A stretch of 6,924 nt of DNA from Actinomycetota bacterium. GTDB taxonomy: Bacteria; Actinomycetota; Actinomycetes; Nanopelagicales; Nanopelagicaceae. Shown one piece after another: positions 2,406 through 6,383 of the stretch (position 1 is its first letter; the number at the start of each line of letters is the position of its first letter). The notes below the pieces were generated by a model. That model saw nothing but the letters and a program-made list of their open reading frames with translations. It was not told the DNA's origin and made no database searches. The translations under genes were made by a program, and so were the position numbers. The stretch lies in assembly GCA_947490605.1 (NCBI GenBank), contig CANLHE010000038.1, positions 1 through 6,924 of the forward strand. Direction: 5' to 3'.

Positions 2406-3722
2406 ATGACATTAAAACTCTCGGTAATTGGTACTGGTTACTTGGGAGCTACTCACGCAGCTTGCATGGCAAGTTTGGGATTTGAAGTTATTGGCTTTGA
2501 TACTGAAGCAAGTAAAATTGATCTGTTATCAAAAGGGAAAGTTCCATTTTATGAGCCAGATTTAGAAGAGCTGCTTGCTGAACAAATTAAAGCCGGCCGA
2601 CTTAGCTTTACCAAAGATATTGCGGAATTGGCAGATGTTGATGTTCATTTTATTTGTGTTGGAACACCGCAAGTTAAGGGTGGGAATGCTGCCGATTTAA
2701 CCTATGTAAATTCTGCCCTTGAATCAATTGCAAAAATTGTAAAACCTGGCGGGCTAGTTGTTGGAAAATCAACCGTTCCAGTTGGCACCGCTACAAGATT
2801 ACGCAATAGATTAATTGAATTAAATCCAAAAGCAGATCTTGCTTGGAATCCAGAGTTTCTGCGAGAAGGATTTGCAGTAGAAGATACCCTTCGACCAAAT
2901 CGATTAGTAGTCGGTGTTACAAATGATCAATCGGAAAAAATCCTTAAAGAGGTATATGCCACAAATCTAAAAGAAAATACTCCATGGGTAAGGGCTAATC
3001 TTCCAACTGCCGAGCTAGTTAAGGTAGCCGCGAACTCATTTTTAGCAACTAAAATTTCCTTTATTAACGCGATGGCAGAGATTTGTGAAGCTGCCGGTGG
3101 TGATGTAACGATTCTTGCTAAAGCAATCGGATATGACCCAAGAATTGGAAACCGTTTCTTACAAGCTGGAATTGGTTTCGGTGGTGGGTGTCTGCCGAAA
3201 GATATTCGTGCATTTATGGCCCGTGCTGAAGAGTTAGGTGCTAAACAAGCAGTTGAGTTTCTAAAAGAAGTTGATGCAATTAATTTACGTGCTCGTCAGA
3301 GAATCATCGAATTAGTAAGAAAAGATCTATCAGAGGATCTGGTTGGCAAGAAAGTAGCAATTTTAGGAGCTGCGTTTAAGCCAGATAGTGATGATGTTCG
3401 AGATTCCCCAGCCCTAGATATTGCTGCCCAAATTCAGGCAGCGGGCGCGGTCGTAACGGTTCATGATCCAAAGGCAATTGCAAATGCTCAAAAACGTTTC
3501 CCAGCATTGAAGTTTGCTGAAGATATAAATAGCACACTTAAAGATGCCGAAATTGTTCTTCACCTTACTGAGTGGAAAATTTATCGTGAGATTAAACCTG
3601 AACAAGTTAAATCCTTAGTTAAAACAGCAATCATGATCGATGGTAGAAATGCCTTAGATCGCGATGCATGGCGATCAGCTGGCTGGAAATTTAGAGCACT
3701 TGGGCGTACCGATAATGAGTGA
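2406..3722 (+). CDS. ugd: UDP-glucose 6-dehydrogenase
   Basis: A 438-residue cytoplasmic enzyme of the UDP-glucose/GDP-mannose dehydrogenase family, normal length. It performs the two-step NAD-dependent oxidation of UDP-glucose to UDP-glucuronate. The N-terminal Rossmann motif is VIGTGYLG (7-14) with acidic FD at 31-32. KSTVPVGT (121-128) and WNPEFLREG (147-155) line the active site. The central helical domain has ELVKVAANSFLATKISFIN (203-221), with the usual Lys and Asn. The catalytic cysteine is C262 in FGGGCLPKD (258-266). The C-terminal UDP-binding domain starts near 315 and carries FKPDSDDVRDSP (324-335). All catalytic residues I know for the family are present. UDP-glucuronate would feed an envelope polysaccharide, consistent with the LCP and glycosyltransferase genes next door. 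A related UDP-sugar dehydrogenase (for example UDP-ManNAc) is possible but less likely. The next gene starts inside its last codons. Confidence 0.93.
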   Translation: MTLKLSVIGTGYLGATHAACMASLGFEVIGFDTEASKIDLLSKGKVPFYEPDLEELLAEQIKAGRLSFTKDIAELADVDVHFICVGTPQVKGGNAADLTYVNSALESIAKIVKPGGLVVGKSTVPVGTATRLRNRLIELNPKADLAWNPEFLREGFAVEDTLRPNRLVVGVTNDQSEKILKEVYATNLKENTPWVRANLPTAELVKVAANSFLATKISFINAMAEICEAAGGDVTILAKAIGYDPRIGNRFLQAGIGFGGGCLPKDIRAFMARAEELGAKQAVEFLKEVDAINLRARQRIIELVRKDLSEDLVGKKVAILGAAFKPDSDDVRDSPALDIAAQIQAAGAVVTVHDPKAIANAQKRFPALKFAEDINSTLKDAEIVLHLTEWKIYREIKPEQVKSLVKTAIMIDGRNALDRDAWRSAGWKFRALGRTDNE

Positions 3723-4107
3723 TCAGATAGATCAAATGCTTGGATTAAAAACTTGGGCAATTGTTGGTTTAAGTAATAATTCTGAGCGCGCTGCCTATCG
3801 CGTTGCAAAAGTTTTAATTGAAAACGGTCATCAAGTGATTCCAGTACACCCAAAAGCAGAGGTTGTTCATGGCCAAATTGGGTATGCAAAATTATCTGAT
3901 ATCCCAGTTCCTATTGATGTAGTAGATATTTTTGTAAATTCAGCACTTGCTGGCTCAGTTGTTGATGAAGCAATCAAAATTGGCGCAAAAGGAGTTTGGC
4001 TACAACTAGATGTAATTGATGCTGGCGCGGTAGCGCGAGCACACGACTCTGGGTTGCTTGCCGTAATGAATCATTGCCCAGCAATTGAGTATAAAAAGCG
4101 AGCTTAG
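3715..4107 (+). CDS. CoA_binding_2 / YccU-type Rossmann protein
   Basis: A 130-residue single-domain protein of the YccU/CoA_binding_2 (COG1832) type, complete in length. AIVGLSNNSERAAY (15-28) is the nucleotide-binding loop. VIPVHPK (41-47), VDIFVNS (70-76), GAKGVWLQLDV (90-100) and VMNHCPAIEY (117-126) are the family's other conserved blocks. The fold is related to the CoA-binding domain of succinyl-CoA synthetase, but the cellular role is not established and I propose none. I chose the ATG at 3715, which overlaps the ugd stop by eight bases, because an ATG at 3664 would add 17 residues lying inside ugd with no family similarity. No Shine-Dalgarno is evident, so translation is probably coupled to ugd. 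The gene ends two bases from the convergent PurK-like gene. Confidence 0.85.
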   Translation: MSDQIDQMLGLKTWAIVGLSNNSERAAYRVAKVLIENGHQVIPVHPKAEVVHGQIGYAKLSDIPVPIDVVDIFVNSALAGSVVDEAIKIGAKGVWLQLDVIDAGAVARAHDSGLLAVMNHCPAIEYKKRA

Positions 4108-4115
4108 TTTTACTC
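4087..4115. terminator. Imperfect hairpin across the convergent CoA-binding/PurK-like junction
   Basis: GAGTA-T-AAA (4087-4095) can pair with TTTTACTC (4108-4115) with one bulged T. An inner AAGC/GCTT (4096-4099 with 4102-4105) can extend the stem. The structure covers both stop codons (TAG 4105-4107 plus; TAA 4112-4110 minus). No clear T-tract follows on either strand, and the stem is weak. It is listed only because the two genes are two bases apart and no other terminator is visible. Confidence 0.2.
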
Positions 4116-4931
4116 CTCTATTTCACCACTGTAATACTGTTGAGCATGAATAATTTCAGTTAGCAAACTCTCCAAATAATCGCCAGAGACTGCAACTTGA
4201 TTAATAGATTGATCAAACTTTAAATTTGGATTGCGCGCCATTAAGTGCAAATATGGACGATAGTTATCACTCTTTGGATCTGTTACTAAAGATCCAGTAA
4301 CTGTGAATTGATTGATAATTTCAGTACTTCCAAGTGGTAAATCTAGAACTGCTCTTAAATATTGCTCGAAATAATTTGAAGTAGAGTTAATCTGAGTCCA
4401 AAATTTCGCTTTGGGTGCAAGCCAATTAATGCTTATCAATTTTTTATGATCATTTGCATCAACTAATAATTCAAATCCACCAACAAGCCCGACCTCAGCC
4501 GCAAGACTTAATGCTGATATCTGAATATCTTTAGCTTGCTGATCGCTTATGCCAGGTAGTGGTGTGATTGTTAAGTTATCCGTGATTAATGTTATGGGCC
4601 AGCTACTAGCTTGGTCGTGAGCAGATCTTGCAATTAAAATTGAAATGCAATCTCCGCTAGCTAGGTTTTTTTCAATTGAATCAAGTTGTTCCAAAGTTTT
4701 AGAGCATGGATATACCCGAACTCCTGCCCGCTCGGCTGTCTTAATTGCTGAAATATCAACCATCTCTGGGTCAATACAAACAATGTCACATTCTTTGGCG
4801 AAATCAATTAACTTATCTGCCGTACGGGCATCCCTTGAGAATTTAAAACCAATTCCGAGTTTATTAGCTTCGGTTTGATAGATACTTTGCGCCCACTCAC
4901 TTGAAATAAGGCCAACGGTTGGGAAACTCAT
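4110..4931 (-). CDS. Degenerate, internally shortened PurK-like (ATP-grasp) protein, probable pseudoenzyme
   Basis: A 273-residue protein that aligns by eye to PurK (N5-carboxyaminoimidazole ribonucleotide synthase, usually about 350-390 residues) at both ends but not in the middle. Residues 4-90 match the pre-ATP-grasp domain, including CDIVCIDPEMV (48-58) and AGVRVYP (69-75). Then ISILIARSAHD (96-106) matches the family block that normally comes about 90 residues later. AAEVGLVGGFELLV (144-157), NYFEQYLRAVLDLPLGST (186-203) and YRPYLHLMARNPNLK (224-238) match the PurK C-terminus. Missing or changed are the GGGQL loop (SSEWAQ here, 10-15), the lysine/glycine-rich ATP loop, the metal-binding N-E (N-W here, 169-170) and the HNSGH motif. 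It is therefore unlikely to catalyse the PurK reaction. The frame is intact over 273 codons, which argues for a retained function, though early decay is possible. It is divergent from maf by 20 bases. Confidence 0.72.
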   Translation of the reverse strand: MSFPTVGLISSEWAQSIYQTEANKLGIGFKFSRDARTADKLIDFAKECDIVCIDPEMVDISAIKTAERAGVRVYPCSKTLEQLDSIEKNLASGDCISILIARSAHDQASSWPITLITDNLTITPLPGISDQQAKDIQISALSLAAEVGLVGGFELLVDANDHKKLISINWLAPKAKFWTQINSTSNYFEQYLRAVLDLPLGSTEIINQFTVTGSLVTDPKSDNYRPYLHLMARNPNLKFDQSINQVAVSGDYLESLLTEIIHAQQYYSGEIEE

Positions 4932-4935
4932 GTAA

Positions 4936-4947
4936 TAAGGTTACCTT
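4936..4947. promoter_or_regulatory. Overlapping bidirectional promoter between the PurK-like gene and maf
   Basis: The 20-base gap contains the 11-base palindrome AAGGT-T-ACCTT (4937-4947). On the plus strand TAAGGT (4936-4941) lies ten bases before the maf ATG. On the minus strand TAACCT (4943-4938) lies exactly six bases before the ATG of the PurK-like gene. Both are TANNNT -10 hexamers and share most of their bases, so one element may open both promoters. The plus transcript would have a leader of about three or four bases and the minus one none. A repressor binding the palindrome is an alternative reading. Confidence 0.5.
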
Positions 4948-4951
4948 CATT

Positions 4952-5551
4952 ATGGTTCAAGTAATCCTCGCCTCATCCTCCACCTCGCGCCTTCGCCTTC
5001 TTGAAAGTGCTGGCATTACCCCTAAAGTGTTAATAAGTGGTGTTGATGAAGAAGCCTCCGAGTTTGATTTACTTTCACCATCTGAACTAGTAATTGCGTT
5101 AGCGATACTTAAAGCTCACACTGTTAAAGAAAGCGCTCCAAAAAATTCATTAATTATTGGTTGTGATTCAACATTTGAATTTAACGGAAAATCTTTAGGC
5201 AAGCCTGGTAATCGTGAGAACGCTATTGCGCGGTGCAAAGAGCTAAGCGGAAAGTCTGGTTACCTGCATACTGGTCATTGTTTAATTGATTTAAAACAAG
5301 GAATTGAGTTAAGTGAGCGATCAACTGCAAAAGTGCAATTTGCGCAAATGACTGAGGCAGAAATTATTGATTATGTTGATTCCGGTGAGCCACTTAATGT
5401 TGCTGGTGGTTTCACATTAGATGGGTTAAGTGCACCTTTTATTACAAACATTGAAGGTGATCCAAGCGGAATCATTGGTTTATCCCTACCCCTGCTTCGC
5501 AAGATGATTATCTCCCTTGGTTATAGCTGGCCAGAGTTAAAAAATAAGTAA
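4952..5551 (+). CDS. maf: Maf-family nucleotide pyrophosphatase
   Basis: A 199-residue protein of the Maf/HAM1-like fold, standard length. Maf proteins hydrolyse nucleoside triphosphates, including modified ones, to the monophosphate and pyrophosphate in the cytoplasm, and some influence septum formation. Family motifs are VILASSSTSRLRLLESAGI (4-22), GCDST (70-74, catalytic Asp), LGKP (82-85), LHTGHCLID (105-113), NVAGGFTLDG (149-158) and GDPSGIIGLSLPLL (169-182). The HTGHC and GGFTLDG wording is of the actinobacterial kind; I cannot assign dTTP/UTP versus m7GTP preference. The ATG at 4952 is chosen because the protein then begins M-V-Q-V-I-L-A-S-S-S as in the family; an in-frame ATG at 4919 would add 11 residues lying partly inside the divergent gene. 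No Shine-Dalgarno is present, which fits a near-leaderless mRNA. Confidence 0.9.
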   Translation: MVQVILASSSTSRLRLLESAGITPKVLISGVDEEASEFDLLSPSELVIALAILKAHTVKESAPKNSLIIGCDSTFEFNGKSLGKPGNRENAIARCKELSGKSGYLHTGHCLIDLKQGIELSERSTAKVQFAQMTEAEIIDYVDSGEPLNVAGGFTLDGLSAPFITNIEGDPSGIIGLSLPLLRKMIISLGYSWPELKNK

Positions 5552-5573: not shown

Positions 5574-6383
5574 ATGAGCGATCTATATAAAGACCCACTT
5601 GGCACAGCTGAAAAAGCTGCAAAAGAAATCGCTAAGTTAACAAAAAAAGAAAAACATGATGTTGCACTTGTGATGGGCTCTGGTTGGATTTCAGCAGCTG
5701 ACGCACTTGGCACTGCTACTCATGAATTTCCGGTTACCGACTTACCAGGCTTTCCAGCACCTACTGTCGCAGGGCATGGTGGAAAAGTTCGTTCTTACGA
5801 ATTAGCAAACTCTGTTAATGCATTAGTTTTTTTAGGTAGAACACATTTTTATGAAGGCTTAGGTATGGAGCCAGTTGCTCATGCAGTACGTACCGCAGTT
5901 AAAGCAGGGTGTCGGACAATAGTTTTAACTAATGCATGTGGTGGTATAAATACTGATTATAAAGTTGGGCAACCAGTTTTAATTAAGGATCATATTTCCC
6001 TAACCGCAGCCTCACCATTAATTGGTGCCGATTTTGTTGATTTAACAGATTTATATAGCAAGCAGTTAAGAGATATTGTTAAAGCTGAAGATCCATCACT
6101 TGCTGAAGGTGTTTATGTTCACTGGCGCGGACCTTCTTATGAAACTCCGGCAGAGATTCGAATGATGCGCACAATGGGTGCAGATTTAGTTGGAATGTCA
6201 ACGGTTCCAGAGGCAATAGCTGCTCATGCGCTAGGTGCAAAAATACTTGCAATTTCTTTGGTAACAAATGCTGCTGCTGGTGTAACTGGAGAAAAGTTAA
6301 ATCATGCTGAAGTTATCGCTGCGGGTAAAGCTGCGGCAGATCGAATGGGCAGTCTTTTAGCAAAGGTGTTGCCTAAGCTGTGA
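5574..6383 (+). CDS. punA: Purine nucleoside phosphorylase, trimeric (6-oxopurine) type
   Basis: A 269-residue enzyme that phosphorolyses purine (deoxy)nucleosides to the free base and (deoxy)ribose 1-phosphate in the cytoplasm. Motifs of the trimeric PNP family are all present: VMGSGW (33-38, phosphate), VAGHGG (65-70, catalytic-site His loop), LGRTHFYEG (87-95), LTNACGGI (118-125), RGPSYETPAE (185-194), LVGMSTVPEA (205-214) and VTNAAAG (230-236). E190 and N232 correspond to the Glu and Asn that recognise O6/N1 of guanine and hypoxanthine in human PNP, so inosine and guanosine are the expected substrates. H244 matches the sugar-side His. It differs from the hexameric E. coli DeoD type. The downstream mutase starts within its last codon, so the two are probably co-translated and act in sequence. 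Confidence 0.93.
   Translation: MSDLYKDPLGTAEKAAKEIAKLTKKEKHDVALVMGSGWISAADALGTATHEFPVTDLPGFPAPTVAGHGGKVRSYELANSVNALVFLGRTHFYEGLGMEPVAHAVRTAVKAGCRTIVLTNACGGINTDYKVGQPVLIKDHISLTAASPLIGADFVDLTDLYSKQLRDIVKAEDPSLAEGVYVHWRGPSYETPAEIRMMRTMGADLVGMSTVPEAIAAHALGAKILAISLVTNAAAGVTGEKLNHAEVIAAGKAAADRMGSLLAKVLPKL

Follow-up and report, generated by a model that had tools for sequence, protein, structure and literature searches.

PurK, the N5-carboxyaminoimidazole ribonucleotide (N5-CAIR) synthetase of de novo purine synthesis (TIGR01161, NF004680; PDB 3ax6, 9zoi, 3k5i), is the closest described relative of a short protein encoded in the 6,924-nucleotide stretch of Nanopelagicaceae DNA analysed here (the window; contig CANLHE010000038.1, assembly GCA_947490605.1). 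The two share ancestry, locus, C-terminal sequence blocks and a predicted N- and C-domain fold, but the short PurK, 273 amino acids (aa) long and encoded on the minus strand at 4110..4931, lacks the ATP-grasp B domain, the metal ligands and the loop for the phosphate of aminoimidazole ribonucleotide (AIR), and its sister genomes carry no PurE. We consider it very likely that this is a conserved pseudoenzyme that descends from PurK and has been retained for something other than purine synthesis, a role independent of both ATP-grasp catalysis and AIR.

Pseudoenzymes in general are inactive homologues kept for binding or regulation, and they resemble the short PurK in losing catalytic residues while fold and purifying selection are retained. 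Here, by contrast, the loss is of a whole domain and has recurred, mostly together with loss of the pathway. Domain atrophy is similar in that core domain elements are lost and the remainder kept, although the PurK example given in that work is the calling of a 2-hydroxyacid dehydrogenase domain on PurK of S. aureus, and not a lost B domain (PMC4432964). Archaea have PurE without PurK, and PurE overexpression rescues an E. coli purK deletion, according to another study (PMC3261824). PurK is thus dispensable in some purine makers, as also seems to be so in one relative studied here (G077), but in the archaeal case purK is absent, whereas here most of the protein is kept. Among acI strains, Kang 2017 describes complete de novo nucleotide synthesis in four (PMC5301498), and the portion of Hamilton 2017 that was available names no purine auxotrophy (PMC5574706); neither set of strains is placed among the groups below. 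Judged from titles and listings, we recognised no report of a PurK lacking the B domain in the open-licence literature.

The reading frame, with a GC content of 38%, opens with ATG and runs stop-free for 273 codons, a run that random codons of the same base composition would give with a chance of 2.6e-9. PurK profiles match the product far under their cut-offs (75.9 against 327 bits for NF004680, 51.0 against 318.4 bits for TIGR01161), and the two sequence blocks from which an earlier note on this DNA had argued for PurK ancestry are both present. Compared with a 373-aa full-length relative (L161, whose numbering we use), residues 108-171, the ATP-grasp B domain, are absent, together with 42-57, 204-208, 333-341 and the first five, which in sum agrees with the roughly 90 missing residues that the note had counted. 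Loss of the B domain takes out K139, which we take to correspond to E. coli Lys120, and 143-149, leaving neither the ATP-grasp lysine nor the GGYDG loop. PurK binds metal through a glutamate and an Asn-Glu pair, and its HNSGH motif is likewise functional. In the 273-aa protein E246, N257, E258 and 264-268 (HNSGH) are lost or replaced, the metal-binding glutamate being lost under either alignment register of INW against NEL, and the GxGQL loop is replaced, so the alignment bears out the loss of the ATP-grasp core and the three altered motifs that had been read from the letters. The E. coli enzyme contacts AIR through Gln11, Lys307, Arg313 and Lys314 (PMC3261824). With the E. coli numbers mapped by motif spacing, the equivalents are gone: Q18 is replaced, 333-341 deleted and K342 replaced. 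By profile score, B domain, metal ligands and AIR contacts alike, the protein is predicted from its sequence not to be an active N5-CAIR synthetase.

Outside the B domain, the PurK fold is kept in the predicted structure. An N-terminal pre-ATP-grasp domain of about residues 1-85 (4677..4931, minus strand; GxGQLARM loop eroded, border at residue 85 set from the alignment) is fused directly to the C-domain, about residues 86-273 (4113..4676, minus strand, placed by alignment). Among 20 orthologues 64 of the 273 positions are invariant, 9 of 85 in the N-domain and 55 of 188 in the C-domain, where the protein carries R102-S103-x-H105-x-Q107, W111, E189-Q190-x-x-R193, DLPLG at 197-201, YRPYLHLMAR at 224-233, K238, H262 and G269.

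These 20 orthologues, the window and 19 further loci (L004-L022), are all exactly 273 aa long, and under a codon model their ratio of nonsynonymous to synonymous substitution (omega) is 0.106. Saturation is ruled out as the cause of this low value because the five closest pairs, at synonymous distances (dS) of 0.14-0.47, give 0.09-0.16. Full-length PurK gives 0.052 (n=16), a short-PurK clade that carries PurE 0.153 (12 rows, one of which, from G101, has no adjacent PurE), and the shortest type, treated below, 0.161 (n=6). These figures bear on slow decay, in which the gene would be a pseudogene on its way out, its frame open by chance or through a folding constraint that fades slowly. An omega about twice that of full-length PurK would fit such decay, as would the shortening to 219 aa in some lineages, the absence of the gene from others and the uneven loss of active-site residues across the short forms. 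On the other side, 0.106 is far from 1, the invariant positions are many, no internal stop occurs in any PurK match among those listed from the family genome searches, and length is nearly fixed in two families: 273 aa in 87 of the first 95 clusters listed, and 219 aa in 29 of 36 relatives of the shortest type (225 aa from the start chosen in this analysis). The 273-aa form thus has neither stops nor frameshifts, its length is not free and its omega is well below 1, so that it bears no mark of a pseudogene; it does combine lost catalytic residues with retained purifying selection, as a pseudoenzyme should. The low omega and fixed lengths make decay unlikely, and the note's preference for selection over decay is upheld.

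The gene order points to an ancestral locus. In relatives that keep purE-purK the order is GT2 (family 2 glycosyltransferase), LCP, ugd, CoA-binding, [purE-purK-birA-like], accD-like, maf, accA-like and purine nucleoside phosphorylase (PNP), the genes in brackets being encoded on the other strand; the birA-, accD- and accA-like names are our assumption, based on gene size and position and on the arrangement in related genomes. In all 11 window-type loci examined (L001, L070-L073, L104-L109), the locus no longer contains purE or the birA-like and acc-like genes, while the short purK is retained between the CoA-binding gene and maf. Because this order matches that of the relatives keeping purE-purK, the short purK is the original purK remodelled in place, as the earlier note had proposed; import or transposition was considered and rejected, the locus being ancestral. 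A further account is that the DNA rather than the protein is retained, the frame containing the promoter from which the divergent maf is read, or insulating convergent genes. On opposite strands, the short purK and maf have start codons separated by only 20 bp (window 4929-4954), so each promoter probably overlaps the opposite gene and maf promoter elements may lie within the frame. Yet invariant residues are denser in the C-domain, away from maf, synonymous sites change freely (dS 0.47 between the window and L004), and other lineages have maf beside ugd; we regard retention for the DNA itself as highly improbable.

Statements on the pathway rest wholly on the genomes of relatives, the nearest (G001) having 85% identity in the short PurK protein. 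In a census of 151 family genomes, in which PurM was scored as present when its match passed the cut-off or was partial but long, the 273-aa window type occurs in 19, and none of these has PurE, PurC or PurM. They are the 19 closest genomes, and all carry the 273-aa form. The shortest types (7 genomes: six of about 219 aa, and G014 with 218 aa) likewise have none of the three, and an outlying short set of five genomes has PurE in one and neither PurC nor PurM. Full-length PurK is found in 91 genomes, of which 90 have PurE, 73 PurC and 68 PurM; the 91 include three genomes whose matches miss the cut-off but are either long or truncated at a contig end (G101, G096, G025), G101 having a short copy as well. 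PurF scored above the cut-off in none of the 32 genomes with short PurK and no PurE, as against 8 of 8 others tested; the low-scoring PurF hits, most of them within frames of about 600 aa, probably represent GlmS. The PurM profile also matches weakly in most window-type genomes; these hits fall chiefly in frames of about 316 aa and are probably thiamine-monophosphate kinase. The single-contig window-type genomes G002, G019 and G031 (1.16-1.24 Mb) are without PurE, PurC and PurH, and PurM and PurF are not above the cut-off. PurH is present in 3 of the 26 window-type and shortest-type genomes. With PurE, PurC, PurM and PurF absent from 19 of 19 genomes (PurM and PurF in the sense of above cut-off), no AIR is expected in the window group.

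Two roles suggested in the note, AIR binding and partnership with PurE, are disfavoured for the window group by these counts and the lost contact positions. A check for a second full-length PurK, also proposed there, gave two PurK-profile matches in G001 (best E 1.1e-8), neither over the cut-off. Two ATP-grasp frames in that genome were considered as second PurKs and set aside, one of 352 aa that reads by eye as D-Ala-D-Ala ligase and one of 1086 aa taken by length alone as carbamoyl-phosphate synthase. Of the outcomes that would have told against the note, none appeared in the form of a frameshifted copy, an omega near 1 or another family that matches better; the wider family does include full-length PurKs, but every one of the 19 closest genomes has the 273-aa form. 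The protein may still be a regulator, the note's remaining suggestion, or a scaffold.

Several observations weigh against a role outside purine synthesis. Twelve of the 151 genomes combine a short PurK with PurE, and PurE, PurC and PurM are found in 12, 11 and 10 of them; this clade seems to keep purine synthesis, so that its B domain went while the pathway stayed, and PurE may work there by itself. The clade speaks for a residual part in the step from AIR to carboxyaminoimidazole ribonucleotide, in which the short PurK would still bind AIR or aid PurE without ATP, and E. coli PurE does work without PurK at high bicarbonate (PMC3261824). Against such a part stand the lost AIR contacts, G077, which has PurE and no detected PurK, and the window group, whose 19 genomes lack PurE and are not expected to make AIR; we hold it to be very doubtful. 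No PurK was found in 17 of the 151 genomes, among which PurE, PurC and PurM occur once each, all in G077, and ugd directly adjoins maf, with no room between, in all 10 gene-less loci examined apart from that of G077 (L110-L117, L119, L120). The gene is thus dispensable in some lineages, with no visible substitute; the locus-by-locus look covered the 17 except G082, G093, G123, G130, G135 and G150, where a very diverged short PurK could be missed. The short PurK also evolves faster than its neighbours (omega 0.052 for Maf with 19 sequences, 0.050 for the CoA-binding protein with 20, 0.021 for PNP with 18), and most of the genomes are fragmentary, three of the window type being single contigs.

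In the PurE-bearing short-PurK clade, the PurE motif reads GGAAALPG in 7 of 11 aligned proteins (L027, L080, L081, L082, L101, L102, L103), and the histidine is kept (AHLPG) in 31 PurEs from full-length-PurK relatives and G077. The histidine of AHLPG is important to PurE. Its loss beside a PurK without a B domain suggests that PurE may have changed its way of working.

The B domain of PurK has been lost several times in the family. A search of 296 family genomes added six short PurKs (G238, G223, G237, G210, G212, G266), all within remnants of the ancestral gene order and in genomes with no PurE, PurC or PurF above the cut-off. On a tree of 76 rows (built without the B-domain columns, the shortest and outlying types, and 13 near-duplicates), the full or short label changes 6 times (5-7 over bootstraps), at least 4 changes being forced by strong branches, and the AU test rejects a single grouping of all 45 short rows (p 7.5e-8). 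The partner of G237 is full-length G029, and G238 and G223 group with full-length G116 and G256. Since regain of a whole domain is unlikely, we read these changes as several losses; not every placement is strong, a number of branches are long, and near the window group some of the losses may be one and the same. Deletion borders vary (101-158 in P0111, 132-176 in G237, about 108-171 in many), with 136-158 covered in all of the 28 rows printed. Follow-up searches for PurE and PurC took in 18 genomes: neither was found in G163-G167, and the four with full-length PurK have PurE in 4 of 4 and PurC in 2 of 4 (G116, G220). G173 and G285 have both and G239 PurC only, and the PurK matches in these three are weak.

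The course of events can be pictured as follows, in an order that we infer. Streamlined freshwater actinobacteria would lose de novo purine synthesis, with purE, purC, purM and purF going; purK would lose its ATP-binding B domain by deletion in place; and the remainder would be kept, either N-domain and C-domain or, in the 219-aa relatives, nearly the C-domain alone. Full-length PurK in this family would already have had a second role. Such a role in the kept part is the simplest account because purK often sheds its catalytic domain when purine synthesis is lost and the rest is still selected. Our pseudoenzyme reading draws on the predicted fold, the loss of catalytic and AIR-contact residues, purifying selection, repeated domain loss and the absence of pathway genes in close relatives. 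As a weakly held guess, the conserved C-domain face (RSxHxQ, W, EQxxR, DLPLG, RPYLHLMAR, H) might be a docking surface for a partner protein or a further subunit, the short PurK then serving as scaffold or regulator. That PurK in Nanopelagicaceae, and perhaps in actinobacteria at large, has a C-domain function unrelated to purine synthesis, bared several times by pathway loss, is a broader proposal whose chances we see as evenly balanced. Repeated natural deletions here separate the chemistry of a textbook enzyme from whatever else PurK does, and the short PurKs are a ready-made minimal construct for finding the second role. For annotation pipelines the caution is that purine synthesis cannot be concluded from a 'PurK' call in these genomes.

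The short purK is flanked by a CoA-binding-domain protein gene (3715..4107, plus strand; frame open from 3664, start at 3715 likelier), convergent with it at 2 bp and adjoining purE-purK in many relatives, and by maf (4952..5551, plus strand), divergent from it. The UDP-glucose/GDP-mannose dehydrogenase family gene ugd (2406..3722, plus strand) and the PNP family gene (5574..6383, plus strand) served as synteny anchors, the latter also as an omega control. The window further carries GT2 and LCP genes and a partial phosphohexomutase gene, and an Rfam scan of it at gathering thresholds gave no match. The relatives' records name the group as Candidatus Nanopelagicus (P0060) and Candidatus Nanopelagicaceae (P0131).

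Elsewhere in the family, PurH was found without PurC in eight genomes (G043, G136, G147, G009, G024, G036, G047, G053), perhaps recycling aminoimidazole carboxamide ribonucleotide (AICAR) from histidine synthesis. Twelve genomes have full-length PurK and PurE and neither PurC nor PurM (G011, G013, G038, G039, G050, G059, G061, G091, G121, G126, G132, G139), which may reflect missing contigs or a half-lost pathway. G077 has PurC, PurM and PurH and is apparently a purine maker lacking PurK; at its locus (L118, 5580-7046) purE is still there, but purE and the birA-like gene have no purK between them. A candidate decaying purF in G223 (L163, contig 176), a weak PurF match with four internal stops, was rejected after tblastn against the G116 purine operon found no similarity. 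In G101 a full-length purK-purE pair lies off the ancestral locus, and at that locus a short purK stands without purE (L088 and L089), which may reflect re-acquisition or contamination. Finally, a full-length PurK of 361 aa on a 1.4-kb contig (P0107) resembles the window type (P0094) by eye over its last 75 or so residues, and may be a recombinant, an assembly chimera or a surviving link.
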